Of a stretch of DNA of 64,000 nucleotides, positions 33,968 to 63,609 are shown in pieces (position 1 is the stretch's first letter; each line of letters starts with the position of its first letter). The notes beneath the pieces are model-generated. The model was given only the letters and a program-made list of their open reading frames with translations, was not told where the DNA came from and ran no database searches. The stretch is from Comamonas odontotermitis. GTDB taxonomy: Bacteria; Pseudomonadota; Gammaproteobacteria; Burkholderiales; Burkholderiaceae_C. The stretch is taken from NCBI RefSeq assembly GCF_020080045.1, contig NZ_CP083451.1, positions 2,356,001 through 2,420,000 of the forward strand. The letters are read 5' to 3'. The position numbers were made by a program, and so were the translations under genes.

Positions 33968-33988
33968 GGCGAACCCTAGAGGGGTGCT
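33968..33988 (-). promoter_or_regulatory. Phage late motif, site A (upstream of holin)
   Basis: Minus strand CACCCCTCTAGGGTTCGCC. One of seven intergenic copies of CCCC(C)-N3-AGGGTT-NGMC in the same orientation. The spacer to the holin ATG is 31 bases. Confidence 0.65.
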
Positions 33989-34302
33989 TAGATCACGATC
34001 TGGGCAGCGGCGATGAACATCTCGTCGAGCTGCTGATCCGTCAGGCCCAATGCTTGCGCAGCTCTCGTCAGGAAAGGTGACTCATACCGGCGCCATGTGG
34101 AGGTGTGATTCCAGGCGAGATCCACCCACATGGCTTCTTCTTCGTCTGTAATGCTGGCGAAATACGCCTCCACTTGAGGGATGAGCTTCATCGACCCGAG
34201 AATTGCACGCCCTTGCGCCCGGCTGATTTCAGCTGGCACGCGGGCGCGGCGCTCTTCTTCGGCGATCTGCTCAGCCGTTTTCATCTGGGACCAGTCGATC
34301 AT
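33988..34302 (-). CDS. Small phage protein downstream of tail fibre genes, 104 aa
   Basis: Starts MIDWSQMKTAEQIAEEERRA; helical and acidic, with a conserved-looking block DEEEAMWVDLAWNHTSTWRR and an C-terminal helix LTDQQLDEMFIAAAQI. Short proteins of this size and character follow tail-fibre genes in many phages and act as fibre assembly factors; that role is inferred only. Overlaps the upstream gene by four bases. Confidence 0.65.
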   Translation of the reverse strand: MIDWSQMKTAEQIAEEERRARVPAEISRAQGRAILGSMKLIPQVEAYFASITDEEEAMWVDLAWNHTSTWRRYESPFLTRAAQALGLTDQQLDEMFIAAAQIVI

Positions 34303-34598
34303 GCTGCAGCTCCTGGTAAAGCAATGCCCCCGTCTGGTGGGTCCATGATGGGCGCTGGAAAACACGCTTCCTGCGGTGCATCCCACGCAATAGGCAGCAA
34401 CAGCGTCACCTGCAGCTGGCCGCCTGTGCGGGTCACGCTGCCAATGATGTGCTCACTGTCAACAGCATCCCCTGGCAAGATTGCACCTTCAGGAAGTTTG
34501 GAGAAGTCGAAGGCTTGTCCGTTCACAGTCAACCTGTCACCCTTCTTGGTGACTTTGAGAACGCCGTCGCGCACCTGTGGAGAAAGATCGATACGCAT
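34299..34598 (-). CDS. Small phage protein near tail fibre genes, 99 aa
   Basis: Starts MRIDLSPQVRDGVLKVTKKG behind an excellent GGAGGTGG Shine-Dalgarno. It contains a beta-rich core (LTVNGQAFDFSKLPEGAILP; GGQLQVTLLLPIAW) typical of small tail accessory proteins found after fibre genes. The ATG overlaps the upstream stop (TAATG). Function not established. Confidence 0.7.
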   Translation of the reverse strand: MRIDLSPQVRDGVLKVTKKGDRLTVNGQAFDFSKLPEGAILPGDAVDSEHIIGSVTRTGGQLQVTLLLPIAWDAPQEACFPAPIMDPPDGGIALPGAAA

Positions 34599-35137
34599 TA
34601 GAACCACCTCCCGATTGCAGTGACGCGGGTTGTGGCAGTGCCAGATTGGCTGGACAAAGCCAGAGGGAAGAAGTTGCACAAAGTGGTTGTACTGTCTCCG
34701 GGCGCCATCGGCGTAAGCTGGCTGCCAATACGAGTCTGCGGGATTACCTGGGGAGCAACCGCAAAAGTGGCCGGGAATGTCCAACCCTGGGTTGCAAAAT
34801 AGAACCCGCTGGCCTGTGTGTTCAAGTTGAGGGATTCGGTAAACGAATGCTGGCAGATCATTGTGCCGTCAGCAAAGCGCACAAACTCGCCATTCGCATT
34901 GCTGCCCCGTTGGACGATTGCGCCTGTTGGCACGCCGCCTGACTGAGATACCGTGCCAAGAATAGGTGCTACAGCGGCGGATCCAAGGCCCAATGCTGTG
35001 CGCACATCGGCCACGGTACCAGCGGAAACCCCAGTTCCGCCCGCAGCTATGCCGAGAAAGTCGCCTGCGGCAAATTCACGAAGCTCGCCGGTCGTGCCCG
35101 AGGTCGGAGTTAGTTTGAGGGGTGTTTGTGCTGCCAT
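34598..35137 (-). CDS. Putative phage tail fibre protein, 179 aa
   Basis: A Gly/Thr/Ser-rich beta protein beginning MAAQTPLKLTPTSGTTGELR. The segment DFLGIAAGGTGVSAGTVADV with ALGLG is the short repeat often seen before fibre tips ('v..GGTG.tt...aR..LGL'). The C-terminal part (GFYFATQGWTFPATFAVAPQ) resembles knob domains of fibres or phage tail proteins that are displayed to the host. Likely part of the receptor-binding apparatus. Confidence 0.7.
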   Translation of the reverse strand: MAAQTPLKLTPTSGTTGELREFAAGDFLGIAAGGTGVSAGTVADVRTALGLGSAAVAPILGTVSQSGGVPTGAIVQRGSNANGEFVRFADGTMICQHSFTESLNLNTQASGFYFATQGWTFPATFAVAPQVIPQTRIGSQLTPMAPGDSTTTLCNFFPLALSSQSGTATTRVTAIGRWF

Positions 35138-35140
35138 ATC

Positions 35141-35926
35141 TCACCCTTGGTAGAAAACAAAGAATTTCACAGGCCGTCCCAGAACCGTTGTGGATGCAGT
35201 GGCAGTGGTGGACAGTCGCAGGTGCGTGGTATTCGCAGAAATGTTGAACTGGGCGTCACTGAACCCGTTCCCATCCATCACAAGGAACCCGTCCGAGGTG
35301 GTCACGACTGCTCGCACCAGACAAATAACAGCCTGGCTCAGCCCATGCGCAACAATATTCCCGGTCGTACCTGTTGATGCAGGTGCTGTGCCAGTCAGAA
35401 GCAGGCACTTCAGGTTCGCAGGTGCCAATTCGCCAAGCTGGGCACCACCACTGAGGGTGCTTGCGCCCGTCACGCCGAGTGCGGAGACATCAGCTCCTGC
35501 GCTGAAAGTCTGTTTGCCACTCCAAGAGCGCGCCACGCCAGTGATGTAGCTCACCAGATTGGATAGGGTCAGCTTGAAGTTGGCCGCCGCGCGCCGGATG
35601 ACCAGCAGATCAGCATCCTGGCCAGAGGCAGCAGTCAGACCATTGAAGTCCGCATCCAGCTTCCCCGAGATGTCCACGGGAGCGGAGGATTCTGGGTTCA
35701 AGCCGATGCGCCACACCCCAGCCGCGCCAGTGGATACCTCCCGGCTGGTGCCGTTGGCGAGGTACACAAGCGCAGGCCCAGACGCCCCGATGGTGATTCT
35801 TCGGACGCCTCCGCCCGCTAGAGTCACAGGGACACTGCGCTCAGGAGTATCCAGCGTCTCGCCCGCAGGCAATTGCCGGCGCACGCCAGCAATCGAAACA
35901 ATGGGTCTGCGGACGGCGCTGGGCAT
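35141..35926 (-). CDS. Putative tail fibre/appendage protein, 261 aa
   Basis: Starts MPSAVRRPIVSIAGVRRQLP. Beta-rich with several fibre-type segments (SGKLDADFNGLTAASGQDAD, SWSGKQTFSAGADVSALGVT, ASTLSGG), and a C-terminal sandwich-like domain ending RPVKFFVFYQG, similar in style to the tip of the neighbouring fibre. Located three bases from each neighbour. Receptor or trimer-stalk function is inferred. Confidence 0.65.
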   Translation of the reverse strand: MPSAVRRPIVSIAGVRRQLPAGETLDTPERSVPVTLAGGGVRRITIGASGPALVYLANGTSREVSTGAAGVWRIGLNPESSAPVDISGKLDADFNGLTAASGQDADLLVIRRAAANFKLTLSNLVSYITGVARSWSGKQTFSAGADVSALGVTGASTLSGGAQLGELAPANLKCLLLTGTAPASTGTTGNIVAHGLSQAVICLVRAVVTTSDGFLVMDGNGFSDAQFNISANTTHLRLSTTATASTTVLGRPVKFFVFYQG

Positions 35927-35929
35927 GGC

Positions 35930-36460
35930 TTACAGGACCACGTAGCCCTGATCGTCGGTCACAAGCTCGGTAGCACTCTTCGCGACGCCCAGGTACTGGC
36001 TCACCTTGCTCACATTGGCCGTGTCGGTTTCATCCAGCGGGGTGTTGATGACCCCGCCCGCGGTGCCCAGGAAGTAGCGCGCACCGACCGTCAGCCCCGT
36101 GAGCCCTGCATTCGTTCCATCCAATGGATAGCCGGTGCCCACCGCACCATTGACCACGGAAGCGATCACATAGCCGTCGGCTTGCCGGCCATTGCTGTTA
36201 TCCGCCAGCCGCATGCTGAAAACACCCGCGTTGTCCCAGAAGTTGATGAACTTGCCAGCGCCAATTGCTTCGGAGGCCGTGGCCTGGGTGGTATTGGCAC
36301 CAATGCCGACTGGCATCATGCTCAAGTCCCATCGTCCATCAGGCCCAAGTGCGCCGAGCTTGCCGGCATCAGCCACACCCGCAGACGTAGCGATCCCGAA
36401 AATCTGTTTGGTCTTGCCCGCGACGCGCGCCAGGAAGCCTTGTGTGGGTTGGGTAGCCAT
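35930..36460 (-). CDS. Phage appendage-associated protein, 176 aa
   Basis: Starts MATQPTQGFLARVAGKTKQI. Contains ATEAIGAGKF-like TASEAIGAGKFINFWDNAGV, RQADGYVIASV and GARYFLGTAGGVINTPL with a final VSQYLGVAKSATEL. These blocks are typical of small phage capsid-decoration or fibre-associated proteins of the type 'YFL...GGvt...p...G...Q.vG.A.s'. The neighbour upstream (36464-37051) ends in a similar 'YLGAAGQLTQTSP...LIGVALS' block, so the two are distant paralogues. Confidence 0.65.
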   Translation of the reverse strand: MATQPTQGFLARVAGKTKQIFGIATSAGVADAGKLGALGPDGRWDLSMMPVGIGANTTQATASEAIGAGKFINFWDNAGVFSMRLADNSNGRQADGYVIASVVNGAVGTGYPLDGTNAGLTGLTVGARYFLGTAGGVINTPLDETDTANVSKVSQYLGVAKSATELVTDDQGYVVL

Positions 36461-36463
36461 GGG

Positions 36464-37051
36464 TCACTCCATTTCAATAGGGTCTTGGATGTTGAGCAGC
36501 AGCCGGGTCGGAGACAGCGCTACGCCGATAAGTACGTCGAAACCTGTAGCAGGCGAGGTTTGGGTGAGCTGGCCAGCAGCGCCGAGATACACGCGCACGC
36601 CGGGTGTCCAGCCCCAAGCGGCATCGTCAATGGATCCCAGGCGCTGCACCAGTACCTGCTGATTGGCTTCGGCAGCCGTGGTGGTCACACCCAGGAGCGT
36701 GAACACCTCGCCCGCTTCCGTAGCATCCGCCAGCCATACCCGGCCAGCAGCGCCCTCAAATACTGCGCGCAATGCACTCAGCTGCTCGCCCGCCGTGCGC
36801 TCGAGCACCTGGCCGCCAGCTGGCCCAGGGATACCCGGTGGGCCCTGCTCTCCGGCGGCCACCACAACCTGGGTGTCTTCAACAGGAAGCACCAGCAAAT
36901 CGGTTTCTTCGTCCAGAGTGACCACCGAAGGCGCAGCATCCTCAATGAACACCGCCGCCTCGGGCACTGGCATGACCAGCACATCGGCTGGCTGCTGGTC
37001 CACGATCACATTGGCATCAGGAACCTGGATCACCACGTCTTCGGTGTTCAT
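36464..37051 (-). CDS. Phage structural protein with collagen-like turn, 195 aa
   Basis: The N-terminal 65 residues consist of short repeated strands with hydrophobic-acidic alternation (VVIQVPDANVIVDQQPADVL, VVTLDEETDLLVLPVEDTQV), then a brief collagen-like GEQGPPGIPGPAGG, then a globular domain (VLVQRLGSIDDAAWGWTPGV, VYLGAAGQLTQTSPATGFDV). The architecture (strand repeat, trimerising collagen motif, small globular tip) suggests an oligomeric virion appendage. Overlaps the upstream gene by four bases. Confidence 0.65.
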   Translation of the reverse strand: MNTEDVVIQVPDANVIVDQQPADVLVMPVPEAAVFIEDAAPSVVTLDEETDLLVLPVEDTQVVVAAGEQGPPGIPGPAGGQVLERTAGEQLSALRAVFEGAAGRVWLADATEAGEVFTLLGVTTTAAEANQQVLVQRLGSIDDAAWGWTPGVRVYLGAAGQLTQTSPATGFDVLIGVALSPTRLLLNIQDPIEME

Positions 37052-37494
37052 CGGGTGCCCTCCGGCTCCACGGACCAGGTGATTTCAGCCACGCGGGTTA
37101 CGTCGTTATTGGGGTGGACGATCTCCAGCTGACCAATAGCCTGGCTCCAAGTCTCGGGAGGCTGGTCGCCGTAGGGAATACCGCTGGTGGTCGCGGCATC
37201 CAGCACGAATTTGATCCATCCATTGCCCTCTGAGAGGTCAATGCGGCCGTTCTCGGTCGTCAGCTCCAGCAGCACAGCAGACGCGAGCACCTCACTGCGC
37301 AACTGCATGCGTGCCTTGCAGTCGGTCAAGTCCACCGGCACCAGATCGGAATCGGGAACCGGCGCGCCATTGTCAGCGCGCACCAACTTGCCGCAATGTA
37401 CTTTGGTGGGGTAAGGGGCGGTGCACCAGCGGAAGCCACGCCGGAACGTGGCGCCCTGGTAGATCGTGTAGCAAAAGCGAGCAGGCGCTGTCAT
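37048..37494 (-). CDS. Phage structural protein, 148 aa
   Basis: Starts MTAPARFCYTIYQGATFRRG, a pattern like 'i.qGaTF.r...w' found at the N-terminus of many small phage baseplate or appendage proteins. It is followed by LVPVDLTDCKARMQLRSEV and LELTTENGRIDLSEGNGWIK and a C-terminal strand pair. The Cys residues (FCYTIY, WCTAPY, HCGKLV, DCKAR) might bind metal. A phage late motif lies 31 bases upstream of the start. Confidence 0.65.
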   Translation of the reverse strand: MTAPARFCYTIYQGATFRRGFRWCTAPYPTKVHCGKLVRADNGAPVPDSDLVPVDLTDCKARMQLRSEVLASAVLLELTTENGRIDLSEGNGWIKFVLDAATTSGIPYGDQPPETWSQAIGQLEIVHPNNDVTRVAEITWSVEPEGTR

Positions 37495-37525
37495 GGCTGA
37501 AAGTGTCAGCCAGCAGCGCCCGCAG

Positions 37526-37546
37526 GTCGAACCCTATACGGGGGAG
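37526..37546 (-). promoter_or_regulatory. Phage late motif, site B
   Basis: Minus strand CTCCCCCGTATAGGGTTCGA ending in C; 31 bases upstream of the next start codon and within a 60-base intergenic gap. Confidence 0.65.
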
Positions 37547-37554
37547 CGCCTCAA

Positions 37555-39366: not shown

Positions 39367-39368
39367 GG

Positions 39369-45090: not shown

Positions 45091-45903
45091 TTATGCTGGG
45101 ATCAGCGAGAAGATCTTGGCGTTGCCATCCGACCAGCGCAGCTTGAATCCGCCGCCATTGCCAGCGAAAGGCAGGCCCATGATGTCATCCTTGATGATCT
45201 GCAGTACAGGCGAAGTGGCGGCATCGGCACCCTGGCGGTACAGTGCAACAGAACCAGGTGATTTGCCTGCAGGGACTGTGCCGAAATCCACATCGGTGGC
45301 ATCAAAGACACCGCCAGTGATGGATTTGCCAGTCAGCTCAACGGGCGTGCCGATGATCTCGCCCAGGTCGGCCAAGTTTTGGTAGGTGCCTTCATGGTCA
45401 AAGGTGGCCGGCAACATCGCAACCTTGAGGGTATCCGTGAGGAAGTTCACCCCAGCCTTCATCACCAGCTCGCCGCCAGAGGGAATGAAGGGGTCATTGA
45501 GCACTGCGATCTTGTCCGGACCATCATTCCAAGGGAAGTTGATCGCGCCGCCATTGGTCGCCATGGGCAAGCCGGTCACAGTGTCAAAGAAGAACAGTAG
45601 CGGCGAAGTCGAGGCGTTGCCAGTGTTCTTGTAAATCGCCACGGACTTGGCCGTATTCCCAGGCGGCAGCGGGTCGGTCGCCACATCGTCAGCGTCGAAC
45701 ACTCCGCCCGTCACATCCTTGTTGGCCAGCACCATGTCTGTGCCAATGCGTGTTCCCAGGTTGCTCAGGAACTCATGCGCAACGCTGTAGGTGTAGGTGG
45801 GAGGCAGGAGCGCGACACGAAGGTCGTCGTTGAGCAGGTTGATCTGGGCGGAGAGCAGTTTCTCCATCCCCTTTGGATAGCTGGTATTGGGCACTTGGCG
45901 CAC
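45091..45903 (-). CDS. Phage structural protein with duplicated domain, 270 aa
   Basis: Two tandem copies of a domain of about 120 residues. The first runs NLLNDDLRVALLPPTYTYSV to LPMATNGGAINFPWNDGPDK, the second NFLTDTLKVAMLPATFDHEG to LPFAGNGGGFKLRWSDGNAK. In between, both have 'LGTRIGT/LGEIIGT', 'TGGVFDADDV/TGGVFDATDV' and 'KSVAIYKNTGNASTSPLL/GSVALYRQGADAATSPVL'. This domain is recurrent in phage minor structural proteins as a single copy, so here an internal duplication has occurred. The start ATG follows a phage late motif by 46 bases. Confidence 0.7.
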   Translation of the reverse strand: MRQVPNTSYPKGMEKLLSAQINLLNDDLRVALLPPTYTYSVAHEFLSNLGTRIGTDMVLANKDVTGGVFDADDVATDPLPPGNTAKSVAIYKNTGNASTSPLLFFFDTVTGLPMATNGGAINFPWNDGPDKIAVLNDPFIPSGGELVMKAGVNFLTDTLKVAMLPATFDHEGTYQNLADLGEIIGTPVELTGKSITGGVFDATDVDFGTVPAGKSPGSVALYRQGADAATSPVLQIIKDDIMGLPFAGNGGGFKLRWSDGNAKIFSLIPA

Positions 45904-45949
45904 TCCTGGTTGATGGTTTCCAAGGAGTGTTCCAGTGAAGAAGCTTGGT

Positions 45950-45970
45950 GGCGAACCCTAGAGGGGTGAC
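45950..45970 (-). promoter_or_regulatory. Phage late motif, site C
   Basis: Minus strand GTCACCCCTCTAGGGTTCGC ending in C; identical to site A over its core. 46 bases upstream of the duplicated-domain gene. Confidence 0.65.
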
Positions 45971-45977
45971 GAAGCCA

Positions 45978-46541
45978 TCAAGCAAATTTCCATAATGCTT
46001 CGTAGATTTGCTTCTTGATGAGGCTAGTGTCTATCGACCAGACCTCACTGGGCGTTGCACCATCAAAAGCCTTCAGGCCGTGCAGCGTCGCCAACTCGTG
46101 GTGAGCAGCCTCCAATGCCTTGATTAGCACCGACAAATCTCGCACAGGCATTTCTTGGGCCAAAAGGTCACCCATCGCACTTGCCACATGGCGGTTGGCG
46201 TTTTCTGCTTTCTGTGCTGTATCGGAATATTTCTCCCCGATGAACGAACGCGAACCAGGAGTTGGATGTGCAGCGCATGCAGATTGGACTCTGAGCGATG
46301 GGGGTTCGTAAATAGATGCAGAAAGTGCTTCATGAAATTCACGAACTTTCTCTGCTTCCTTCCTGAAAACCTCATCGCGCGCCTCTATGCAAGCTGATTG
46401 GCCAGCAGCAAACAGCTCAAGCGACCTAGCCTCTCGCTCTTTTCGCTGCTTGCGGTCATTGAACACATAGACAAACGCCGTCAATGACAGTGCCAGCGCG
46501 ACAAAGCACAGCGCCCAAGTTACTCCATCCAAGAGATCCAT
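45978..46541 (-). CDS. Membrane-anchored hypothetical protein, 187 aa
   Basis: N-terminal membrane helix (WALCFVALALSLTAFVYVFN) followed by a basic stop-transfer KQRKERE and a cytosolic or periplasmic helical domain. No recognised family. The last gene read leftwards before the conversion block; it may be part of superinfection exclusion (membrane-anchored proteins are common there) but nothing in the sequence proves this. A phage late motif lies 65 bases upstream. Confidence 0.6.
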   Translation of the reverse strand: MDLLDGVTWALCFVALALSLTAFVYVFNDRKQRKEREARSLELFAAGQSACIEARDEVFRKEAEKVREFHEALSASIYEPPSLRVQSACAAHPTPGSRSFIGEKYSDTAQKAENANRHVASAMGDLLAQEMPVRDLSVLIKALEAAHHELATLHGLKAFDGATPSEVWSIDTSLIKKQIYEALWKFA

Positions 46542-46606
46542 CGTCAGCCTTCCACGCCGCCCACCGAGGCGGCTTTCGCTTCATGGTCGGCTATGGCAAG
46601 GGGGTG

Positions 46607-46627
46607 GGCAAGCCCTAGAGGGGGATT
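46607..46627 (-). promoter_or_regulatory. Phage late motif, site D
   Basis: Minus strand AATCCCCCTCTAGGGCTTGC ending in C, with one change (GGGCTT for GGGTTC). A weaker half-like copy (AACCCCCTATGGCGTGAC) starts about 20 bases further upstream. The mazEF operon starts divergently 70 bases away. Confidence 0.55.
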
Positions 46628-46695: not shown

Positions 46696-46998
46696 ATGGA
46701 ACTAACTATTCGCGCATTTGGAAACAGCAAAGGCATCGTCTTGCCTAAGGCACTCCTGTCTCAGGCGGGCCTAACTGGCGCAACAGTTGCAAGTGCAGAG
46801 GTATTGGAGGGCGCTATTGTTATCAAGGCTCTCCCATCCGTTCGCAATGGATGGGCAGATGCTGCAGCCAAAGTTGCAGCAGCTAAAGATGATCACCTTG
46901 TCATGGGTGAGTTCTCGAATGCTGGAGACGAAAACTTGGCATGGGACGATTCGCCTGCCCCTCTGGCAAATGCACCCAAGGAGGCCGTGGAGTGGTAA
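46696..46998 (+). CDS. MazE-like antitoxin (AbrB/SpoVT fold)
   Basis: A 100-residue protein whose first half is the swapped-hairpin DNA-binding fold (MELTIRAFGNSKGIVLPKAL, family: 'i.k.GnS.girlPk.ll...gl'), and whose acidic C-terminus (GDENLAWDDSPAPLANAP) would bind and neutralise MazF. AGGAG precedes the ATG. The next gene starts inside its 3' end. Autorepression by the MazE-MazF complex is the usual control. Located in the prophage conversion block on the strand opposite to the late genes. Confidence 0.85.
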   Translation: MELTIRAFGNSKGIVLPKALLSQAGLTGATVASAEVLEGAIVIKALPSVRNGWADAAAKVAAAKDDHLVMGEFSNAGDENLAWDDSPAPLANAPKEAVEW

Positions 46999-47327
46999 GC
47001 AGCAGCCAACACGTCAAACGCGGCGAAATCTGGCTGGTCAACCTTGACCCAACCCAGGGAAAAGAAATCCAGAAGACCCGACCCTGTGTGGTGCTGACAC
47101 CCAACGAAATGAACTTCGAAATGGGAATCGTGACTGTCGCACCAATGACGACTGGCAGCCACCCAGCGCCGTTCCGCGTTCCGGTCACCTTTCAGAGCAC
47201 CAAAGGCTTGATCCTACTCGATCAAATGCGAGCAGTAGACAAGTCACGGCTGGTTGAGTGCAGAGGCGAGGTGAAGAGCCAAGTGGTTCAGTCTTGCCTC
47301 AAAGTTCTACAAGAAATGTATTCCTGA
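46992..47327 (+). CDS. MazF-like mRNA interferase toxin
   Basis: A 111-residue PemK/MazF endoribonuclease. KRGEIWLVNLDPTQGKEIQK then TRPCVVLTPNEMN is the conserved N-terminal signature (Arg in 'kTRPvvvls'), and FRVPVTFQSTKGLILLDQMR-AVDKSRL is the second. Start codon is a GTG inside the antitoxin gene, seven bases before its end, with AAGGAGG six bases upstream; the overlap couples toxin to antitoxin synthesis. Probably stabilises the prophage or acts in exclusion. Confidence 0.9.
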   Translation: MVSSSQHVKRGEIWLVNLDPTQGKEIQKTRPCVVLTPNEMNFEMGIVTVAPMTTGSHPAPFRVPVTFQSTKGLILLDQMRAVDKSRLVECRGEVKSQVVQSCLKVLQEMYS

Positions 47328-47339
47328 GCTGTCAGCCAA

Positions 47340-48176
47340 ATGAACACAAGACTTGCTTCAAGCCTCTCGCACTACTTCACTGCGCGCTGGCACCGTGGCC
47401 CCAAGGTGCACATTGCACCGACAGCCCGTGACTTGCCTGTACCAGCACCGGAAGACGCGCGCGGTTTGTACTGGCGCGGTGATGTGCACCTGGTTGCCGC
47501 CCAGCCAATGGACTCATTTGCACAGGCGCTGGTGCATGAAGCTGTTGGCCACCACGGGCTCCGGCAACTGATGGGTAGCGAGTGGAAGCACTTCATGCGT
47601 CACATCAGCGATGGGATTCGTGCTGGTGAACCTGGGCTGCAGCACATCCGCAGGCATATCCGCCGCTCTTACACGGACGATGCTGGCCGCTACATGCTCA
47701 CCTCAAGGCAGGAGGCCGACGAGGTTGCAGCCTATGTGGCAGAAGAAATGGTTTGCTATGCAACCGGGAGCATCAAACCGGACCGGCCACTGACTCAGGC
47801 GCTTCAAGCAGTCAAAGGTCGGGTTCTGCGCGAAGGACTCTGCCTCGACCGCAATGTCTCTCGATCCGAGCTTGAAGGTGCCCTCTTTCTCGCTGCCAAG
47901 CACTTGGAAGGCTGGCCCTGGCTGCCAGTGCGTCACCGCATTAGGAGGTTTTGGGGCACTTGCGCTAATATGCTAGGCATGGTTGACAAGTACAAGCCTC
48001 CTATGTCCATGGCCGAGTCCGAGCGTTTGCTGCGGAATGAGGCTCAGCGGATTAAAGACAAGGAAGAACGCGCTTTCCTATTCAATGGAATATTCGGAAT
48101 TCTGTGCCTCATTGGACTAGTAGTGTGTGCAGTGCTTGTACTACTTGGCTTCGGAAAAATTTTCTTCGGCCACTAA
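47340..48176 (+). CDS. Zincin-like protein with C-terminal membrane anchor, 278 aa
   Basis: Residues 62-75 read QALVHEAVGHHGLR. This HEAVGHxGLR motif is known from phage polyvalent proteins and resembles a zinc metallopeptidase site, although the spacing is HExxxH rather than HExxH. A possible third ligand is in RQEADEVAAYVAEEMVCYAT. Residues about 245-272 form a strong membrane helix (GIFGILCLIGLVVCAVLVLL), with a Lys-rich segment before it, so the catalytic part would face the cytosol. It starts 13 bases after mazF and probably shares its transcript. Substrate unknown. Confidence 0.65.
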   Translation: MNTRLASSLSHYFTARWHRGPKVHIAPTARDLPVPAPEDARGLYWRGDVHLVAAQPMDSFAQALVHEAVGHHGLRQLMGSEWKHFMRHISDGIRAGEPGLQHIRRHIRRSYTDDAGRYMLTSRQEADEVAAYVAEEMVCYATGSIKPDRPLTQALQAVKGRVLREGLCLDRNVSRSELEGALFLAAKHLEGWPWLPVRHRIRRFWGTCANMLGMVDKYKPPMSMAESERLLRNEAQRIKDKEERAFLFNGIFGILCLIGLVVCAVLVLLGFGKIFFGH

Positions 48177-48194
48177 CCCCGCCCTCCCCCAAGA

Positions 48195-48222
48195 CGAGCC
48201 CACTGATGTGGGCTTTTTGCTG
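48195..48222 (+). terminator. Terminator after the mazEF-zincin operon
   Basis: GAGCCCAC-TGAT-GTGGGCTTTTTG: a clean stem-loop with a U-run about 20 bases after the zincin-like gene. Confidence 0.75.
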
Positions 48223-48341
48223 GGTGCGGGTGGACGAGGACACGCCGAATGCGAAGGCTTGAAGCATTTCTGCATCGTTCAGCTTATCCCATAGGAACTT
48301 CGAGATACATTGCCGTATATATTTACTTCGAACAACACTCA

Positions 48342-48626
48342 ATGAATGACTCTTCACCCAAAGACATCAAGCGCTCTATCAGAAATAAGTACAAACGCCG
48401 ATTGCGTTGGCTCGCTCATGCTGTAGAACAATATGGATTTGCAGCAACCGAACGCATTGAAAATGGAGGCAATATTCGAGATAGAGAAGATATAGAAGCG
48501 ATTCTCAAGGCCATTGAACCGTTAAAGAAATTTCTTCCCAAACAAGATGAGCGTGATGAGAAAGCCAACCGCAGCATCAGTGAAGCCCTTGGTATCGAAT
48601 TTACGCCCCTCGACAAAGATGCATAA
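48342..48626 (+). CDS. Hypothetical protein, 94 aa
   Basis: Starts MNDSSPKDIKRSIRNKYKRR. Highly charged, helical, no membrane segment; moderately AT-rich. The middle (YGFAATERIENGGNIRDRED) and the tail (ALGIEFTPLDKDA) are not recognised. I chose the ATG in AATGAATG; an upstream extension in frame lacks coding character. It may be part of the conversion block. Confidence 0.5.
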   Translation: MNDSSPKDIKRSIRNKYKRRLRWLAHAVEQYGFAATERIENGGNIRDREDIEAILKAIEPLKKFLPKQDERDEKANRSISEALGIEFTPLDKDA

Positions 48627-48645
48627 CTCTGTGCGCAAATATTCG

Positions 48646-48760
48646 CCGCCTTGACCCATCTCAAAGCGCCCTCCCCGCTACCGCTCTACCATCACCTTGC
48701 CTCTGGGAGCGGAGGCGCTTTGCTGTAAGTGCTTTGCCACCCCGGAGGTGGCATTTTTTT
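48646..48760 (+). ncRNA. Candidate small RNA, second copy
   Basis: CCGCCTTGACCCATCTCAAA, GCCTC-TGGGAGCG-GAGGC, TGCTGTAA and a terminator (TGCCACC-CCGG-AGGTGGCA plus seven T) in the same order as at 20.01 kb. About 80% of bases agree outside the terminator stem. No ORF. It follows the 94-residue gene after 20 bases. Confidence 0.5.
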
Positions 48761-48912
48761 ACCCACCATGTAGCACCTCCACAGATGGATGGCTTGGCCG
48801 GATAGACACCTCAAGGCGTAAGTCTTTGTGTAATCAGGATTTAGGGGATTAAAGAGAGTACTGTGGGGCGAGGCGATCCATCTTGCTTCGCCGCAATAGA
48901 CCGGAGGTCTAT

Positions 48913-49080
48913 ATGTTCTCCCTACTACTTTACAAGCGCCATCTTGAGTTCTGGCGCGATCTCCAAGAGATCTTCCTCAGGCCCCTAGAGGAAGTCACCC
49001 TTACACCCAAAGCAGCGCCTCCAGCCACTCCCGCCTATGACTCAGAACCAGCAGAGCCGAAGGTTCCGGAGCAAAGGTAG
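48913..49080 (+). CDS. Small hypothetical protein, 55 aa
   Basis: Starts MFSLLLYKRHLEFWRDLQEI with GGAGG seven bases before the ATG. A short amphipathic helix precedes a Pro/Ala/Glu-rich tail (APPATPAYDSEPAEPKVPEQ). Probably translated given the good ribosome-binding site; function unknown. Confidence 0.5.
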   Translation: MFSLLLYKRHLEFWRDLQEIFLRPLEEVTLTPKAAPPATPAYDSEPAEPKVPEQR

Positions 49081-49108
49081 CTGAGGCGGCAAGCCAGAAG
49101 CACACTCC

Positions 49109-49348
49109 ATGAGAAGCCCCCTAGATCATCTATCTACGCATATTCGCAATCTTCTTGCTGCTCATGGTGCTACAACCCTTGAACAGATTGCAGACATGTA
49201 TCCTCACAAGCTACTGAGCATGCGCAGATTTGGATTCAAGGCACTGCGAAAGGTCGAGTGGCTTCTGCCAGACCAACCCTATTTCGCTCAAACATCTCCC
49301 AAAAGACCATTGCGGTGCATGTGCTCATATTGCAGGAATGCAAAGTAG
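49109..49348 (+). CDS. RNA polymerase alpha-CTD-like mini-protein, 79 aa
   Basis: Residues 6-55 resemble the C-terminal domain of RNA polymerase alpha: LSTHIRNLLAAHGATTLEQI and ADMYPHKLLSMRRFGFKALR then KVEWLL, compared with 'LsvRs.NcLk...i.ti.dL......eLl.....GkKSl.Ei...L'. This helix-hairpin-helix-like domain binds UP elements and activators. A C-terminal CMCSYC cluster (three Cys) might bind metal. It stands alone rather than attached to an alpha N-terminal domain, and lies in the prophage conversion block. A role as a transcription modulator is inferred. Confidence 0.65.
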   Translation: MRSPLDHLSTHIRNLLAAHGATTLEQIADMYPHKLLSMRRFGFKALRKVEWLLPDQPYFAQTSPKRPLRCMCSYCRNAK

Positions 49349-53354: not shown

Positions 53355-54899
53355 TCAATACCCCATTTCTTTCAGACGTGCCGCCAAGGCAGGATCAGAT
53401 GCCGCGCGCCGTTGAAGCTCTGTGACTTGAGCATTCCCGGTGTTGGCTGCTACTGCTGCATTGCCAGCACCCACCACCTGACCAATTCGCTGCTCTGAAT
53501 TAGGCACTTCTGCCTTGATGCCAGCCGTGGCGATGGCCCGGTTTTTCAGCTTCTGATCGATTACCTCAGGGGAGTCACCTGGCTGCGGAAAGTACTGCTG
53601 GCGGGCATTGGCAAACTCACCGTCGCTGATTGCAGCCCCGGATTCACGGCGCAGCACAGCGTTGATGAAGTCCCGCTGGCTCTGCTCGACCTTCTGCTGC
53701 TCTGCACTTTGCGTCCAATTTGCAGCTGCACCCATACCGACGGCATCAGCTGCACGCTTGAATAGCCCAGGCTGGTTTACGCCTTGATTGGCCAGATCCG
53801 ATAGCGTCTTGTCGGCCTCCTGCATACGGCTGCCGAACTGCAGCGCCTTGGACTGGACATCATTGAGCGGCGCTTGACTCTTGTCCGCTGGCCCACCAGG
53901 GATCGCCTCTAGCCCGCCGCTGGTATTGAACCGATAGCCTGCAGGAGCATTTGCACGGCTGGCAGCTGCCGCCCTCTCCTTGGCCGCTTCAATGGATCCC
54001 AGAGCATCAATCATGGAGCGCTGCATGCCAGAGTCTGCTGCAATGTTCGCCTTCTGCAGCTCCGTCTGGTTCGCCTGCTGGCCCAACATGGCCTGCACCA
54101 AAGAGCGCTGCTGGTTACCCTGCTGCTCCATCCCCTCCCGCTGCAGGCCTGCGTTGACCTGGTTGGTAGCCATATCGAGGCGTGGTTGTTCCGCCCGGGC
54201 CGACAGATCCGCGCGGGCGGCATCCTGGAAGGCCGCTTGGGCGAGTGAGGGCCCATTGATCCGGCCACGACGGGAATCAAATGCGCCGCCGTTGTTCGTG
54301 ATCGAGCTGGCAGATACCTCCAAGTTGCGCAGATTGTTGCGAGCTTCCCAGTCATTGCCGCTGTGAGCTACCTGTGGTGCATTGAACTGCGGTACCTGTT
54401 GCTGCGGCTGCATGCTGAACGCCCGGTCGATCAGAGACTGGCCGGCAGGAGGCTTTGCGGCTGCAGGAGGAGTGTCAAAAGCCCGCGCAACCAGCCCGCC
54501 ACCCATGCCAGGAGAGCCTGGACTTGCACCATTTATTGAGACATCGCCTCCCACGTTTCCACCGCTGTAGGTATTCGTGGTCGGGTCGAAGCTCACCTTG
54601 TTGGACTGTGGAGTCCCTGCAAAAGCACGGCTCACCAGCGAATCTTGAACGGGCGCAGGCGCTTGGGGGTTTGCAACGCCACTATTGGTGACGTTTCGCT
54701 GCAATGGGCCTGCTACAGGGCTGGCAGCTGGAGTCGTTGCAGGGGCTGAGGGAGGCTTTGGAGGCGAGGCCATAGCCACCTGCACCATTCCAGGCTTAGA
54801 GGCTGCCGCAGCATCTCCGAACGAGTTTGGCCGCGGCGCTCGATAGTCATCCATTGGGATCTGATCAATAAGACTCTGGCGTTGATCATTCGTTGCCAT
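53355..54899 (-). CDS. Ejection-type virion protein with SLIDxIP motif, 514 aa
   Basis: Starts MATNDQRQSLIDQIPMDDYR. The first 150 residues are low-complexity linker interrupted by short segments SLVSRAFAG, LVARAFDTPP and SLIDRAFSMQ that resemble the N-terminal motif. The remainder is helical (QAAFQDAARADLSARAEQPR, ANQTELQKANIAADSGMQRS, NAVLRRESGAAISDGEFANA). The block RRESGAAISDGEF also occurs in proteins of internal virion type. A phage late motif lies 51 bases upstream. Confidence 0.7.
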   Translation of the reverse strand: MATNDQRQSLIDQIPMDDYRAPRPNSFGDAAAASKPGMVQVAMASPPKPPSAPATTPAASPVAGPLQRNVTNSGVANPQAPAPVQDSLVSRAFAGTPQSNKVSFDPTTNTYSGGNVGGDVSINGASPGSPGMGGGLVARAFDTPPAAAKPPAGQSLIDRAFSMQPQQQVPQFNAPQVAHSGNDWEARNNLRNLEVSASSITNNGGAFDSRRGRINGPSLAQAAFQDAARADLSARAEQPRLDMATNQVNAGLQREGMEQQGNQQRSLVQAMLGQQANQTELQKANIAADSGMQRSMIDALGSIEAAKERAAAASRANAPAGYRFNTSGGLEAIPGGPADKSQAPLNDVQSKALQFGSRMQEADKTLSDLANQGVNQPGLFKRAADAVGMGAAANWTQSAEQQKVEQSQRDFINAVLRRESGAAISDGEFANARQQYFPQPGDSPEVIDQKLKNRAIATAGIKAEVPNSEQRIGQVVGAGNAAVAANTGNAQVTELQRRAASDPALAARLKEMGY

Positions 54900-54950
54900 T
54901 CCTGCACCTCTAATAGTTCAGATTGCAGTGTCTACAGAGGAGGGATTTAC

Positions 54951-54971
54951 GTCTAACCCTGTAGGGGGTAC
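54951..54971 (-). promoter_or_regulatory. Phage late motif, site E
   Basis: Minus strand GTACCCCCTACAGGGTTAGA ending in C; 51 bases upstream of the start of the 514-residue gene, within a 208-base gap. Confidence 0.65.
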
Positions 54972-57130: not shown

Positions 57131-57149
57131 TGTGCTTGTCCAGTCAGTT

Positions 57150-57182: not shown

Positions 57183-57189
57183 GTGCCCA

Positions 57190-58227: not shown

Positions 58228-58246
58228 GATTTAACTCCTTGTTGGG

Positions 58247-59152: not shown

Positions 59153-59187
59153 GCGTCATGCACTCCTTAAATCCACTTCCACCAAGG

Positions 59188-59409
59188 TCAGTAGGTTGGC
59201 CCAACGTTGGTGCTCAATTCCGGGTCAGGCTTATTGGCCAGAGCCAGTAGTGACTTAAAGGCTGCAATTCGCCCTCGCATCTCTGCAGTGGCTATTGCAT
59301 CCAGCACAGGCGAATCGTTCTTCTCTCTCAGAATGGCAATTTGTCCCTCAGCGAACTGTTGAACTGCCCGCCAAGTCTGAGAGCTAATATCGACTGCCTG
59401 CTTCGTCAT
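59188..59409 (-). CDS. Small phage protein, 73 aa
   Basis: Starts MTKQAVDISSQTWRAVQQFA. A single helical domain with EGQIAILREKNDSPVLDAIA and TAEMRGRIAAFKSLLALANK. Similar short helical proteins between portal and scaffold genes are common in this sort of phage but unassigned. It follows a phage late motif with a 30-base spacer. Confidence 0.65.
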   Translation of the reverse strand: MTKQAVDISSQTWRAVQQFAEGQIAILREKNDSPVLDAIATAEMRGRIAAFKSLLALANKPDPELSTNVGPTY

Positions 59410-59439
59410 GGAGGCAGTTTCAATTGGGAGGGATTAAGC

Positions 59440-59460
59440 GTCCAACCCTACAGGGGGTTA
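59440..59460 (-). promoter_or_regulatory. Phage late motif, site F
   Basis: Minus strand TAACCCCCTGTAGGGTTGGA ending in C. It overlaps the last codon and stop of the portal gene and lies 30 bases before the next start codon. Confidence 0.65.
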
Positions 59461-61665
59461 CAGCACGCCATCAAGGCGTTGTGTCTCTATACCTTGCTTC
59501 ATGCCGATGTCAGGACTCACCGGGTTACCTGGATGAACAGGATCCGTGTTCTCCTGTGGCTCGATGGGTGGAATGGCAGAAGTGTCAGCCTCGGGGTAGA
59601 TTGGCGCTATATCCTGGTCTTTGAATCCAACCGATCGAGCCAGGCCATCAGCAAGCCCTGCCGCTTGAGGCACTGCTGCAATAACCTGAGCGGTCTGAAC
59701 TCCGCTGTAAAGCGTCTCCATGCCGACATTGGTAGCCTCTGCATCTGCTTTGCGAGCCAACGCCAACTCTTTGGTCTGCTGGGCCTCCAGTAGACCTGCC
59801 TTGGCCTCCAGTGTTGGATCAGGTGCTGGTTGCTGCGCTTGCGTGGCCTCTTCGTCCATCTGGAACTTCTTCGGATCCAGGCGTTGCCCCTTGCACAGCT
59901 CAGCAGCCAGTTTGGCTGGATCGAGTTTGTAAAGCGGATTGGCAGCTGCTTGAAGCATGGACATCAGGAATTGCTGCTGCGCATCACGCTCTACCAGGGC
60001 AGATGACGCACGCACATCAACCTGAAAGTCACCCTTGATACTCTCGTCATCGCTGTAAATCATCATCCAGTCGAAGTAGCGACGGATATGCGGAGCGGTC
60101 ATGTAGTCGTCAAAGCGCTTGGCAAGGCGTCGCAGCACACTGGTGGCATTGTTGTTCTGCATCTGCATGCCACCCAGGGTGTTGGGCGCATCGCCGCGGA
60201 TACCCTGCAGCATGGCAGGCATGCCGGTTGTGTCCTCGGCCATCTTGAGCGCGAAGTTGATGATGTTCATCAATTCGTTCTGCACAGACGGGACAACAAA
60301 GGCGTTGAAGGCGCCGCGCACATCCTGAACTGTGGCATTTGCTTCTGCACGCCACACCTTGCCTGGGCGAAGCGCATAGCTCCCATCAGCAGGTGTTATG
60401 TTGTTGCCAATGATGATCTGCGGCGCCGCCGACAGTCCGCCGTTGTCCATCATGGCCCGGGCACTAGCATTGAGCATGCGCTGCGTGGTACGAATCTGGC
60501 GGCTGATGCCCATGCCCCATGGCATGCCAGGGCGACGCTGCCAGGCTAGAACGTCATAGGGGAACTCACCATTTTCCTGGGGGCTCATGACACACTTGAC
60601 CAGCCGATCATTGATCAGGACCGCCATGGTTGGCACACGATCTTCATCATCCTCTTCCAGATCAACACCGATGGCTGCGAGGTGCTCCTTTGCGCAGTAG
60701 CCGTAAAAGATCCACATCTCGTACTCATCATCGCCTGGGCGGTAGGTCGCCTCGGTGCCTTCGCGCACACGGCTTGGCCCTTCTTTGAGAGCAGCCTTCA
60801 GGGCAGTGGTGTCGTAGCTCTCATCAGCCAGCAACTCCTTGATCTGGCGCTTGCTAATGCACTCGCGCTCCCAGATATAGCTGCCGTGGTGAATGTTCTC
60901 TCCGCAAGATGGATCAGGGAAGAGGTTCCATGGATCAATGCGCTTGCTTGCTGGCTGGATTTCGTCCACCTTGACCATTGCAGTCAAGCCGGTCACTGGG
61001 TCCTTTTGTGTCACCCGGACAGTGCGCATGACCGGGAATGGCCCTTTCAGGACGCCGGATCCAATGCGTGCCGAATCTTCAATGACCTGACGCACCTCTC
61101 CATGCCAATTTGATTCAACCAATGGATCCTCAATTGCATCCTGCATCCGCAAGGCGGCTTCTTCAGCCTGGGCCTGCTGCGCCTCCAGTTGTGATTGCAA
61201 CTGCTCGGGCCCCTCAGCGCCCATCTGTTGAGCAAGCGCAGCCAGTTTGATGGGTGAAATCTGCGGCAATGGCGTTGGCTTGATCTCCCAGCACCGATCA
61301 TCGATTGGCAGCAGCATGTCCGATACTCGTGCGCTTGCTGCGTCCGTATAGCTTCGGGTGATGTTCAGGAAGATGACAGAGCGACCGCCCTCATTCCTTT
61401 TCATGCTCTGGCCGCTCAAGATGGCAGTCTTACGGCTGCGGTAGAGCTGGTTTGCATTTTGAAAATCGCGGTTGGCATCATCAATGCCCTGATAGTGCTC
61501 CTCATCCTCCGTCCACTCTTCCTCGATCCCAGATCCGGCACGGCCAGAAATGGCCTCTTTCCGCTTGGTCAGGAGCGTATTGAGGAAAGTGCGGCCAATA
61601 TCCGCTCCAGAATCTGGGCGGTCATGCTGCATGTCTGCCTGGTTGTTTTCTGTGATTGCTTGCAT
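59458..61665 (-). CDS. Portal protein, 735 aa
   Basis: A large portal of the podovirus type. Early segments are RTFLNTLLTKRKEAISGRAG and RSVIFLNITRSYTDAASARV then SDMLLP. The stem/clip region contains PASKRIDPWNLFPDPSCGEN, VPTMAVLINDRLVKCVMSPQ, PGMPWGMGISRQIRTTQRML, and MLQGIRGDAPNTLGGMQMQN. The C-terminal helical region (AKAGLLEAQQTKELALARKA) could form the barrel. Portals form the dodecameric ring for DNA entry. I chose the ATG four bases after the terL stop; an ATG eight codons upstream lies inside terL and has no clear Shine-Dalgarno. Confidence 0.9.
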   Translation of the reverse strand: MQAITENNQADMQHDRPDSGADIGRTFLNTLLTKRKEAISGRAGSGIEEEWTEDEEHYQGIDDANRDFQNANQLYRSRKTAILSGQSMKRNEGGRSVIFLNITRSYTDAASARVSDMLLPIDDRCWEIKPTPLPQISPIKLAALAQQMGAEGPEQLQSQLEAQQAQAEEAALRMQDAIEDPLVESNWHGEVRQVIEDSARIGSGVLKGPFPVMRTVRVTQKDPVTGLTAMVKVDEIQPASKRIDPWNLFPDPSCGENIHHGSYIWERECISKRQIKELLADESYDTTALKAALKEGPSRVREGTEATYRPGDDEYEMWIFYGYCAKEHLAAIGVDLEEDDEDRVPTMAVLINDRLVKCVMSPQENGEFPYDVLAWQRRPGMPWGMGISRQIRTTQRMLNASARAMMDNGGLSAAPQIIIGNNITPADGSYALRPGKVWRAEANATVQDVRGAFNAFVVPSVQNELMNIINFALKMAEDTTGMPAMLQGIRGDAPNTLGGMQMQNNNATSVLRRLAKRFDDYMTAPHIRRYFDWMMIYSDDESIKGDFQVDVRASSALVERDAQQQFLMSMLQAAANPLYKLDPAKLAAELCKGQRLDPKKFQMDEEATQAQQPAPDPTLEAKAGLLEAQQTKELALARKADAEATNVGMETLYSGVQTAQVIAAVPQAAGLADGLARSVGFKDQDIAPIYPEADTSAIPPIEPQENTDPVHPGNPVSPDIGMKQGIETQRLDGVL

Positions 61666-61666
61666 G

Positions 61667-62962
61667 TCAATATCCCATCTCTGGATCATGTGCTACCCAG
61701 CTTGAATTAATTGCTATAGGGCGCTCTTGCTGGGCTCGATACATGTGTTCAGCCGACATAGCGATATATCGGAATGCATCTGCCCCGTGGCTGTACTCAT
61801 CGTGCAGCGGGCCCATGGGCTCGTTCGTCTTGCTGTTGACCGCGCGCTGGTAACGCTTCAGGCATTCCAGCAGCCTGGCGGCCTTGCTCTTGTCGAAGTA
61901 ACAGCGAGGGAATAGCATGCGCGCAGACTTGATCCCTTCTTCCACACTGAGCGCCGGATTGCACTTAACCTGGCGCCGGCCCAGTAGACGCAGTTTTTGC
62001 TCTGCGGTCTGTCCAGTTTGGAAGTTTCCAGCGTTGCCGTCGTGTGGCAGATAGTCCCACCCCCAGCGGTATGGGCGTTTGTCCAGTTGGGCGACATACC
62101 AATCCAATGTCCGGTGGCTGTCCTCTATGTAGTCGATGATCCGAACATCCTGCGCGCCGCCAATCTGGACCATAGCGATGGTCATAGAGTCATTCCAGCC
62201 CAAGTCCCAGACAGTATGAACCGGCAGACGTGTGTCATAGGGCACATTGCCAACACGTTGGTCTTGGTACAGCGCTTCAATCTCAAAACGATAGATTGCT
62301 CCAGCAGAAACGGTGCGGGCCTTGCCCTCCCAGATATGCTCATAGTCTTCCTTGAGCATGGAACGCTTGGCCTTGAGGCGTTCTTCATTCAGGACATCTG
62401 GAAACCAGGGGTTGTCCCGCCAGTTGATGTCACAAACCCAGGTATCTTCTGAAGGTGTGGCAATGAAACGCTGGTAGGTTTCATCGGTCTCCATGTCCGG
62501 GTTCAGGGTCAGCCAGATCTCGCTGCCTTCCTTGCGGATCGTGGGTGTGAGTGTGTCCCATGACTTTTTACTCACCCCATGGGCTTCTTCCACCCAGACA
62601 AGATCCACCCCTTCAAAGGACTTTATCGAATCCACTGTGTGGCTCTGCAGGCCTGAAAACACGATCAGCGTGCCATTGGCGCCCCGAATCTCCGTGTCCA
62701 GCACTTCATAGAACGCTTGCAGGCCAAGCTTGATGATCTTGTCCTTGAGCAGCCGATGCACAGAGTCGCGCATGGACTTCTGGATTTCACGGGCGCAGAG
62801 GATGCGCAGTGGGTTCCGAGCGCCCTTCTCCAGCAGCACCTCGGCAACACCGTGTGACTTACCTCCACCTCGGCCGCCCTTCATCACTTTGTACCGGCAA
62901 GGCTTGTACAGGCCGGCCAGCTTGGCTGGGATTTGCACGTTGATAGCAAGGGGTGCGTTCAT
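61667..62962 (-). CDS. Terminase large subunit
   Basis: A 431-residue packaging motor of the PBSX/Terminase_3-like group. The ATPase has Walker A in KGGRGGGKSHGVAEVLL and Walker B with catalytic Glu in VDLVWVEEAHGVSKKS, followed by motif C TLNPD. The C-terminal RNase H-like nuclease has the acidic residues in DLGWNDSMTIAMVQIGGAQD and VRIIDYIEDSHRTLDWYV, and later HDEYSHGADAFRYIAM. The start overlaps the terS stop by four bases (ATGA). Confidence 0.95.
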   Translation of the reverse strand: MNAPLAINVQIPAKLAGLYKPCRYKVMKGGRGGGKSHGVAEVLLEKGARNPLRILCAREIQKSMRDSVHRLLKDKIIKLGLQAFYEVLDTEIRGANGTLIVFSGLQSHTVDSIKSFEGVDLVWVEEAHGVSKKSWDTLTPTIRKEGSEIWLTLNPDMETDETYQRFIATPSEDTWVCDINWRDNPWFPDVLNEERLKAKRSMLKEDYEHIWEGKARTVSAGAIYRFEIEALYQDQRVGNVPYDTRLPVHTVWDLGWNDSMTIAMVQIGGAQDVRIIDYIEDSHRTLDWYVAQLDKRPYRWGWDYLPHDGNAGNFQTGQTAEQKLRLLGRRQVKCNPALSVEEGIKSARMLFPRCYFDKSKAARLLECLKRYQRAVNSKTNEPMGPLHDEYSHGADAFRYIAMSAEHMYRAQQERPIAINSSWVAHDPEMGY

Positions 62963-63558
62963 TCGTCATCCTCGGAACGCGCAGGGGCTTCGACGAAGGT
63001 GACAGTTGACTGAATGGAGATAGGAGCACCACCTGGGCCACTGTGTTCAGCCTGGAGCTTGTCGCCGTATTTCTTCGGAACCAGCTTAGACAGCAGCCAC
63101 TTACGCGCATCTACTCGCAGACGGTTGCGGGCTACAGCTGTTGCGTCGAATACCACCTCCGTATTGCCGTCACCATCCTCGTCTCTGCTGCCATGTTTGT
63201 CGGCCTTAACCATGGTGCACTCTTCGTCAGCAATGGACAGGATGTCTTCTGCCATCGTTTCGGCCTGCGCCTCTCGCGCGCGCGCGTAACGCTCTCTGAG
63301 CTTGTCGCCCTCTTCCCCATCCTCAGCGAGCCATCGCATAAAGGTGGCCATTGCAGGCATACCCGGCTCGGCACAGATGGAGCGCAGGCTGTTCCCCTCT
63401 ACAAGCTTCTGCAGTACAGCATCCGTGACAGTGCGATCAAGGGCATGAGGTGGCCTTGCTGCAGACGCACCTTTGCCTGCCGCCTTCTTCTTGACAGCAG
63501 GCTTAGCTTTAGAGTTCTTGGGAGTTGCAGGCCTTGTGCCTTGCTTTGGTGTTGCCAT
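62959..63558 (-). CDS. Terminase small subunit
   Basis: A 199-residue DNA-recognition subunit. A Lys/Ala/Pro-rich basic N-terminal tail (PKNSKAKPAVKKKAAGKG) precedes the HTH region RTVTDAVLQKLVEGNSLRSI then CAEPGMPAMATFMRWL, typical of small terminases ('i...i..G.sl..ic...gmps..tf..Wl'). YARAREAQAETMAEDILSIA is the oligomerisation coiled coil, and the C-terminus ends RSEDDE. The start ATG was chosen so that a phage motif lies 30 bases upstream; an in-frame start further upstream would run through that motif. Confidence 0.9.
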   Translation of the reverse strand: MATPKQGTRPATPKNSKAKPAVKKKAAGKGASAARPPHALDRTVTDAVLQKLVEGNSLRSICAEPGMPAMATFMRWLAEDGEEGDKLRERYARAREAQAETMAEDILSIADEECTMVKADKHGSRDEDGDGNTEVVFDATAVARNRLRVDARKWLLSKLVPKKYGDKLQAEHSGPGGAPISIQSTVTFVEAPARSEDDE

Positions 63559-63588
63559 TCCCTGAGTGTTCAGGGAAGGCTTCGTGAT

Positions 63589-63609
63589 GTCGAACCCTAC
63601 GCGGGGGGC
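63589..63609 (-). promoter_or_regulatory. Phage late motif, site G (upstream of terS)
   Basis: Minus strand GCCCCCCGCGTAGGGTTCGA ending in C; 30 bases before the terS start, in the intergenic gap that separates the late operon from a divergent gene. Confidence 0.65.

Follow-up and report, generated by a model that had tools for sequence, protein, structure and literature searches.

Late promoters of known phages, and the prophage analyzed

In phages P2 and Mu several late promoters, whose sigma-70 elements are weak, have an upstream site that is bound by a phage activator (Ogr and C, respectively), and we know of no leaderless late mRNAs in these systems. In lambda and P22 the regulator gene (that of Q and of gp23, respectively) lies before the late region, and Q antiterminates at one late promoter. 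The lambda promoter PRM, which serves cI, is leaderless, transcription starting at the A of the AUG. The late promoter of T4 is TATAAATA. According to two accounts (PMC2988020, PMC7892883), T4 late promoters have a -10-like element without a normal -35 element and without conserved sequence at -35 or upstream, gp55 acts as sigma, and the regulators gp55 and gp33 carry C-terminal clamp-binding motifs. Here we analyze a repeated intergenic element in 64,000 nucleotides of the Comamonas odontotermitis genome (contig NZ_CP083451.1, positions 2,356,001 to 2,420,000; the window), which contain most of a prophage of about 61 kb.

An earlier inspection of the letters alone (the sequence-only reading) had listed seven minus-strand copies of the motif CCCC(C)-N3-AGGGTT-NGMC, at positions 33968, 37526, 45950, 46607, 54951, 59440 and 63589. 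Its candidate explanations were a promoter of a phage RNA polymerase, a late-activator site and an RNA hairpin. We consider it likely that these sites are temperate-phage late promoters used by the host RNA polymerase together with a phage activator, a 162-aa winged-helix protein. The late-activator explanation is thus the one supported, by the matrix scan, the geometry of the element, its distance to the start codon and the co-occurrence of element and protein.

Architecture of the element

All seven copies are present, each ahead of a minus-strand gene and with the spacers given by the sequence-only reading, except that the 46-base spacer of the site at 45950 ends at GTG and not at ATG. Six of the copies are strong, while the seventh, at 46607, is degenerate. 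Alignment with related loci shows that the motif is only the upstream half of a longer element, CCC-N4-AGGGTTCGMC-N18-RAMACT, in which about 18 bases are unconserved and which in most cases has an ATG 6-8 nt behind it. The distance from AGGGTT to ACT is 25 nt in five window sites, whereas the other two, 33968 and 46607, have CAT in place of ACT at that distance. Using a search pattern that permitted 23-26 nt between AGGGTT and ACT, we found in seven phage records 15 matches continuing as AGGGTTCG, all with exactly 25 nt.

The numbering used here counts the T of RAMACT as -7, and the position of the dyad depends on that choice. In the matrix numbered in this way, the CCC-N5-GGG inverted repeat is centered at about -42, near -41.5; the conserved block extends from -48 to -31, its TCGAC at about -35 to -31 forming a partial -35 element; and RAMACT at -12 to -7 forms a poor -10 element, which keeps -11A and -7T and often -9A. 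The strict pattern used below itself demands -11A and -7T. In prophages selected by their protein, where these bases were scored and not required, both are present in all 13 significant sites (by eye).

A scan of the 64 kb on both strands, with a matrix of 68 sites none of which came from this prophage or its near-identical relatives, gave 25.9-40.5 bits for six of the seven sites and 4.0 bits for the best other position. The motif is also commoner than chance: the pattern of the sequence-only reading with at most two mismatches has 10 matches against 3.07 expected, a number reached in none of 100 shuffles. The genome has 4.83 Mb, and the strict pattern is present in it three times, always inside this prophage, and the shorter pattern CCCYNNNAGGGYTNGMC eight times, five of them inside this prophage.

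Start codons and predicted leaderless transcripts

When site sets were compiled, a site was dropped if it was identical to one kept or exceeded 80-85% identity to it. The set for start distances comprised 66 sites, non-redundant at 80% identity, and was obtained with a search pattern that did not include ATG. The first ATG was found 6, 7 and 8 nt after ACT in 12, 36 and 4 sites, respectively (52 of 66); in the other sites it was found at 18-36 nt (ten sites), at 2 nt (one site) or not within 40 nt (three sites). A Shine-Dalgarno core (GGAG, GAGG or AGGA) accompanies one of the 52 sites with an ATG at 6-8 nt versus seven of the ten leadered sites. As Shine-Dalgarno sequences are rare at the near ATGs and usual at longer leaders, most of the late mRNAs are predicted to be leaderless. 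If RAMACT serves as the -10 element, the predicted transcripts of the 6-8 nt class begin with the ATG and those of the other class with a normal leader, and this is our main reason for regarding the element as a promoter.

In the SPTW and TTPA families the element-linked ATG is also where amino acid conservation begins (by eye), and the deposited start agrees with the predicted one for terS of phage H66 (GenBank) and for two of five genes of Acidovorax phage AP1. The sequence-only reading had stressed four near-identical spacers of 30-31 nt to the ATG; these belong to exactly those window sites with an ATG 6-7 nt after the -10-like element, and the remaining three window sites have longer leaders.

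A candidate activator found together with the element

The sequence-only reading had guessed that a late regulator is encoded in the part of the prophage outside the window, and a candidate was indeed found there. It is the minus-strand gene of the 162-aa winged-helix protein (L009:883-1368; genome C1:2420382-2420867), which begins 0.4 kb beyond the window end and lies 0.8 kb upstream of terS. Its sole match is phrog_8117 (PHROG 8117), a family of unknown function. In the AlphaFold2 model (pLDDT 85.9, pTM 0.46) a winged helix is combined with a small beta domain and a helix of 59 residues. The best Foldseek match in BFVD is an uncharacterized protein of an uncultured marine virus (E 2.4e-4), and a sequence search of the PDB, with PscE as the best match (E 0.00046), led nowhere. 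A profile was grown from this protein, homologs of which were found beside many sites (alignment of 28 rows); a profile search yielded 162 proteins, and the 120 listed have no Pfam domain and, if they are named at all, are called "hypothetical" or "uncharacterized".

The strict 41-nt pattern matched 119 stretches in IMG/VR, and the first 50 contigs in the order of this list, contigs already present being skipped, were searched with the profile. It matches 38 of these 50 motif-chosen contigs: all 31 contigs of at least 35 kb and seven of the 19 shorter ones, with the 35-kb cut chosen after inspection of the table, in which the largest contig without the protein has 32.5 kb. Of the same 31 contigs, 13 contain the portal protein of the window, 21 its terL, and three neither. 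Hence, portal and terL track the motif less well than the winged-helix protein does.

The converse test started from the protein. Among 399 genomes of the family, 21 encode it, 16 of them with a strong match; the genome analyzed here and five weak matches (G055, G111, G308, G408, G486) were left out, and 15 regions were fetched regardless of the motif. The strict pattern occurs in none of these regions, and therefore they contributed nothing to the matrix. In 13 of the 15 prophages the best same-strand site within 4 kb downstream beats all 100 dinucleotide shuffles; nine of the 13 significant sites lie within 0.8 kb of the stop codon of the protein gene, the best opposite-strand score being 8.2, and 11 of the 13 have an ATG at 6-8 nt, one of these sites having an ATG at 1 nt as well. 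Neither the motif nor the winged-helix protein is present in two portal relatives, a 59-kb contig that was searched in full and MW202426 (searched for the protein in the whole record and for the motif in 41.8 of 49.5 kb). In a set of ten records that included these two controls, the protein was found in five, the misses being the controls and three fragments of 8-21 kb.

From the element, its spacing, the start-codon distance, the Shine-Dalgarno contrast and the co-occurrence, all of which are observed in the sequences, we infer the following course of events. The winged-helix coiled-coil activator would be expressed with the early operon, would occupy -42, the position of class II activators, in dimeric form and would bring the host RNA polymerase to six or seven scattered late promoters. 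Transcription would start about 6-8 nt past RAMACT, which at most sites is on the ATG and would produce a leaderless mRNA; at the remaining sites the start would open a leader of about 12-35 nt, usually with a Shine-Dalgarno sequence.

The C-terminus of the protein provides a further lead. Of 43 non-redundant homologs, 23 have a peptide Q[LMVI]x[LIM] within their final 14 residues, compared to a mean of 3.2 and a maximum of 10 in 2000 shuffles; this peptide resembles the bacterial beta-clamp-binding motif QL(S/D)LF. This makes replication-coupled late transcription possible, clamp binding by the protein being a lead rather than a result. In a wider scheme, which we regard as conceivable although somewhat doubtful, the late regulon with its capsid and lysis genes would be tied to ongoing replication: the activator at -42 would place its C-terminal Q[LM]xL on the host beta clamp, a counterpart of the T4 solution made of unrelated components, and leaderless starts together with a hairpin over the -10 element, formed in read-through RNA only, would keep the late genes untranslated until their own promoters fire. 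Among the phages with a homolog of the proposed activator, USP_25 has a gene product (L182 14487-15263) that is annotated as DNA polymerase III beta subunit and partially matches PF02767 (DNA_pol3_beta_2).

Spread among phages

Relatives were collected by the portal protein, which yielded 16 IMG/VR loci and eight other genomes of the same genus. With the pattern of the sequence-only reading and at most two mismatches, 15 of the 16 loci and six of the eight genomes have one or more matches oriented like the portal gene, in total 37 sense versus six antisense matches. The strict pattern occurs in only two of the 399 family genomes, both with the winged-helix protein; it is thus too strict for distant relatives, and the matrix was used instead.

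Both the element and the winged-helix protein are present in F116, H66 and AP1. The element before terS scores 32.6 bits in H66 and 30.5 bits in F116, and these phages have weaker sites before gp59/gp58 (11.9 bits) and before the holin gene (8.5 bits). AP1 has five sites of 16-25 bits, one of them before terS; its record lists a tape measure protein, which suggests another virion type. A plasmid search gave three records, all with weak matches.

Two other sequence patterns were noticed by eye in phages with weaker homologs. In Pseudoalteromonas phage Y7 and Shewanella phage Y11, GTAAGGTT, a shorter string related to the element, occurs upstream of terS (L180, upstream of 11069; L181, upstream of 15414) and is followed 17-18 nt on by TATAGT or CATAGT; here the -10 element is more usual and the spacing is different, and the element may have diverged into this form. 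Common to phages 8P and USP_25 is an intergenic palindrome of approximately GGCCGG-N3/4-CCGGCC, followed by TATTCT or TATGCT, before several early genes (for example, L179 13059 and 17305, L182 12913), possibly a separate set of promoters or operators.

Weighing the explanations

Several observations weigh against late promoters activated by the winged-helix protein. The start sites are deduced ones; the annotated start of F116 terS is 75 nt downstream of the ATG predicted here, and those of three of the five AP1 genes are 9-21 nt upstream of theirs. The H66 site at gp44 has a spacing of 26 nt, not 25 (by eye), and -9A is present in only seven of the 13 protein-selected sites (by eye). The consensus TCGACN matches TTGACA at four of six positions, and RAMACT matches TATAAT at only three of six; on these counts a canonical sigma-70 promoter with recognizable TTGACA and TATAAT is absent. 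The sequence-only reading had concluded that the element is not a sigma-70 promoter, which is too strong: the -35 and -10 elements are poor matches, but -11A and -7T are kept at the right distance to the start codon. As for the protein, motif contigs contributed some of the sequences in its profile, the Foldseek matches in the PDB are generic winged helices only (best E 1.3e-3, none at or below 1e-3), and two of the 15 protein-selected prophages have no significant site (L161, 10 of 100 shuffles; L164, 2 of 100). The matrix finds no site in the cultured phages 8P, USP_25, Y7 and Y11, which have weaker homologs, over about 18 kb of each; the homologs of 8P and USP_25 precede a replication gene and not terS, and the stretch fetched from these two contains no annotated terminase or portal. 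Finally, the co-occurrence is one among related phages and falls short of proving binding, and the records D14I and D14S name the homolog a putative AbiEi antitoxin.

The last two points favor late promoters recognized by some other phage or host factor, such as an alternative sigma or another helix-turn-helix (HTH) protein; the winged-helix gene, perhaps that of an AbiEi-like antitoxin, would then simply belong to one conserved block with them. The early operon does encode other HTH proteins, a D5-like one (weak match to phrog_323) and a LexA-like one (below the Pfam cut-off). We consider this explanation unlikely, given that the winged-helix protein and the site travel together where portal and terL differ, and that tblastn of 28 related loci, many of them too short to extend into this region, found the winged-helix protein in nine, the LexA-like protein in four and the D5-like protein in one. 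The D5-like protein (L009:1835-2176) was dropped as a candidate regulator, since this search found it only in the near-identical phage L021. Short conserved promoters ahead of late genes also resemble the style of single-subunit or N4-type phage RNA polymerases, and the N4 virion polymerase uses hairpin promoters. No polymerase family was detected with PHROGs among 20 window and 10 L009 proteins, which are part of the prophage open reading frames (ORFs), and two blocks with A-11 and T-7 have the architecture of sigma-dependent promoters, a geometry that fits the host polymerase. We therefore reject the phage-polymerase candidate of the sequence-only reading and rate it as extremely improbable.

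The remaining possibility is an RNA element, a hairpin at the start codon of read-through RNA regulated by a protein or by early transcripts. The flanks of RAMACT do tend to pair in the 52 leaderless sites: the mean stem is 3.62, whereas permuted partners give 2.46 and reach at most 2.92 in 1000 permutations. In a set of 71 sites classified by simple sequence rules, the mean stem is 4.38 before terS-like genes (n=21), where this pairing speaks most for the hairpin, 4.50 for MKK-type (n=2), 3.50 for other (n=16) and 2.73 for TTPA-type (n=11) genes; it drops to 1.67 at post-portal sites (n=6) and to 1.47 at sites that are leadered or without a near ATG (n=15). Since leadered and post-portal sites have no palindrome, yet keep both blocks at the same spacing, the pairing lies outside the core element; the palindrome was ruled out as an essential part, and the hairpin does not hold as a feature common to all sites. 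An exact distance across unconserved bases fits a constraint of DNA geometry, and Rfam gave no match at the gathering score in window positions 33500-64000, so a known Rfam element was rejected. We thus regard an RNA element as highly unlikely. It is a conjecture that the palindrome may hide the start codon in read-through RNA. A resemblance of GGGTTCGA to the T-arm of tRNA was rejected as well, there being no tRNA in the window.

Window sites and gene context

The late promoters proposed here lie before terS, the 73-aa gene that follows portal, a gene of 514 aa, genes of the tail region and the holin gene, all on the minus strand. The putative promoter of terS (63563..63607, 39.0 bits) has AACACT followed after 6 nt by the ATG at 63558, which predicts a leaderless mRNA, and its palindrome CCCTGAACACTCAGGG spans the -10 element. 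The first late gene, terS (62959..63558, minus strand; phrog_1482, PF20901 Sf6_terminase), was taken to start at this ATG, and a longer ORF with a TTG start was not adopted. In the near-identical phage L021, terL and portal are 99% identical to those of the window, but terS (L021 8117-8722) is only 39% identical; as the promoter element before this diverged terS is kept, module exchange at the element is possible.

The element between portal and the 73-aa gene (59414..59458, 31.2 bits), which touches the stop codon of portal, has GAAACT, 6 nt and the ATG at 59409, with a predicted leaderless transcript. The promoter-like element before the 514-aa gene 53355-54899 (54925..54969, 30.6 bits) has GACACT and a leader with GAGG before the ATG, and that before the tail-region gene 45091-45903 (45924..45968, 40.5 bits) has GGAACACT and a leader with AGGAG. 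Between these two lies the degenerate copy before gene 45978-46541 (46581..46625, 2.6 bits; AGGGCT, TGCC and GACCAT), which may be weak or vestigial. The elements before gene 37048-37494 (phrog_1084; 37500..37544, 27.1 bits, GACACT, 7 nt, ATG 37494) and before the holin gene 33697-33936 (phrog_21780; 33942..33986, 25.9 bits, GATCAT, 7 nt, ATG 33936) are again predicted to give leaderless mRNAs. Plus-strand ORFs at window positions 46941-49348, possibly moron genes, interrupt the minus-strand late genes, and the first of them, 46941-47327, looks by eye like a candidate MazF/PemK-type toxin (VKRGEIWLVNLDP...).

The bounds of the prophage are given by a 46-bp repeat and by the tRNA-Lys/integrase end. 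The left attachment repeat (window 26791..26836, no strand assigned) is identical to the repeat L175:6215-6260 at the right-end tRNA-Lys, and the integrase gene adjoins this attachment site (genome C1 2442923-2444159; L175 5024-6260). Named relatives are Acidovorax facilis and two Comamonas metagenome-assembled genomes, which makes a member of the Comamonadaceae the probable host.

Comparison with known systems

In the literature searched we found no description of the promoter, of the role of the protein or of the leaderless design, and none of the articles among the matches listed for the motif letters is on phage promoters. For F116, no description of a late promoter or late activator was found in this literature, with an earlier mention in the F116 genome paper (Byrne and Kropinski 2005) being possible. 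The analysis offers a switch for late genes that can be tested in many temperate phages of a broad group, the classical transducing phage F116 among them, and suggests a function for the unannotated family PHROG 8117. An entire late regulon may be expressed mainly from leaderless mRNAs, and leaderless translation could then be studied in a natural setting. Binding of the clamp by the C-terminal peptide, if it occurs, would mean that late transcription is coupled to replication in phages other than the T4-like ones as well.

The Hollowayvirus phages F116 and H66 have the same element before terS and the gene of a homologous protein just before terS; they differ in being Pseudomonas podoviruses with partly different structural genes and with fewer and weaker sites. 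The design resembles T4 late transcription in its -10-like element and, as a likeness of the peptide only, in the C-terminus of the putative regulator. It departs from T4 in the strongly conserved block from -48 to -31 upstream of RAMACT and in the winged-helix protein; among the scanned proteins, which are part of those of the prophage, none belongs to a gp55 or gp33 family. Like lambda Q and gp23 of P22, the candidate regulator is encoded before the late region, whereas Q acts at one promoter and each phage here has six or seven sites. Compared to leaderless promoters such as lambda PRM, the leaderless start is predicted to be the common design of the late regulon across the phage group. The likeness to P2 Ogr and Mu C lies in a phage activator that would act at several late promoters; the protein families and sites look unrelated. 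Activator-driven late promoters are a known class, to which the winged-helix family probably adds a new family of activators.

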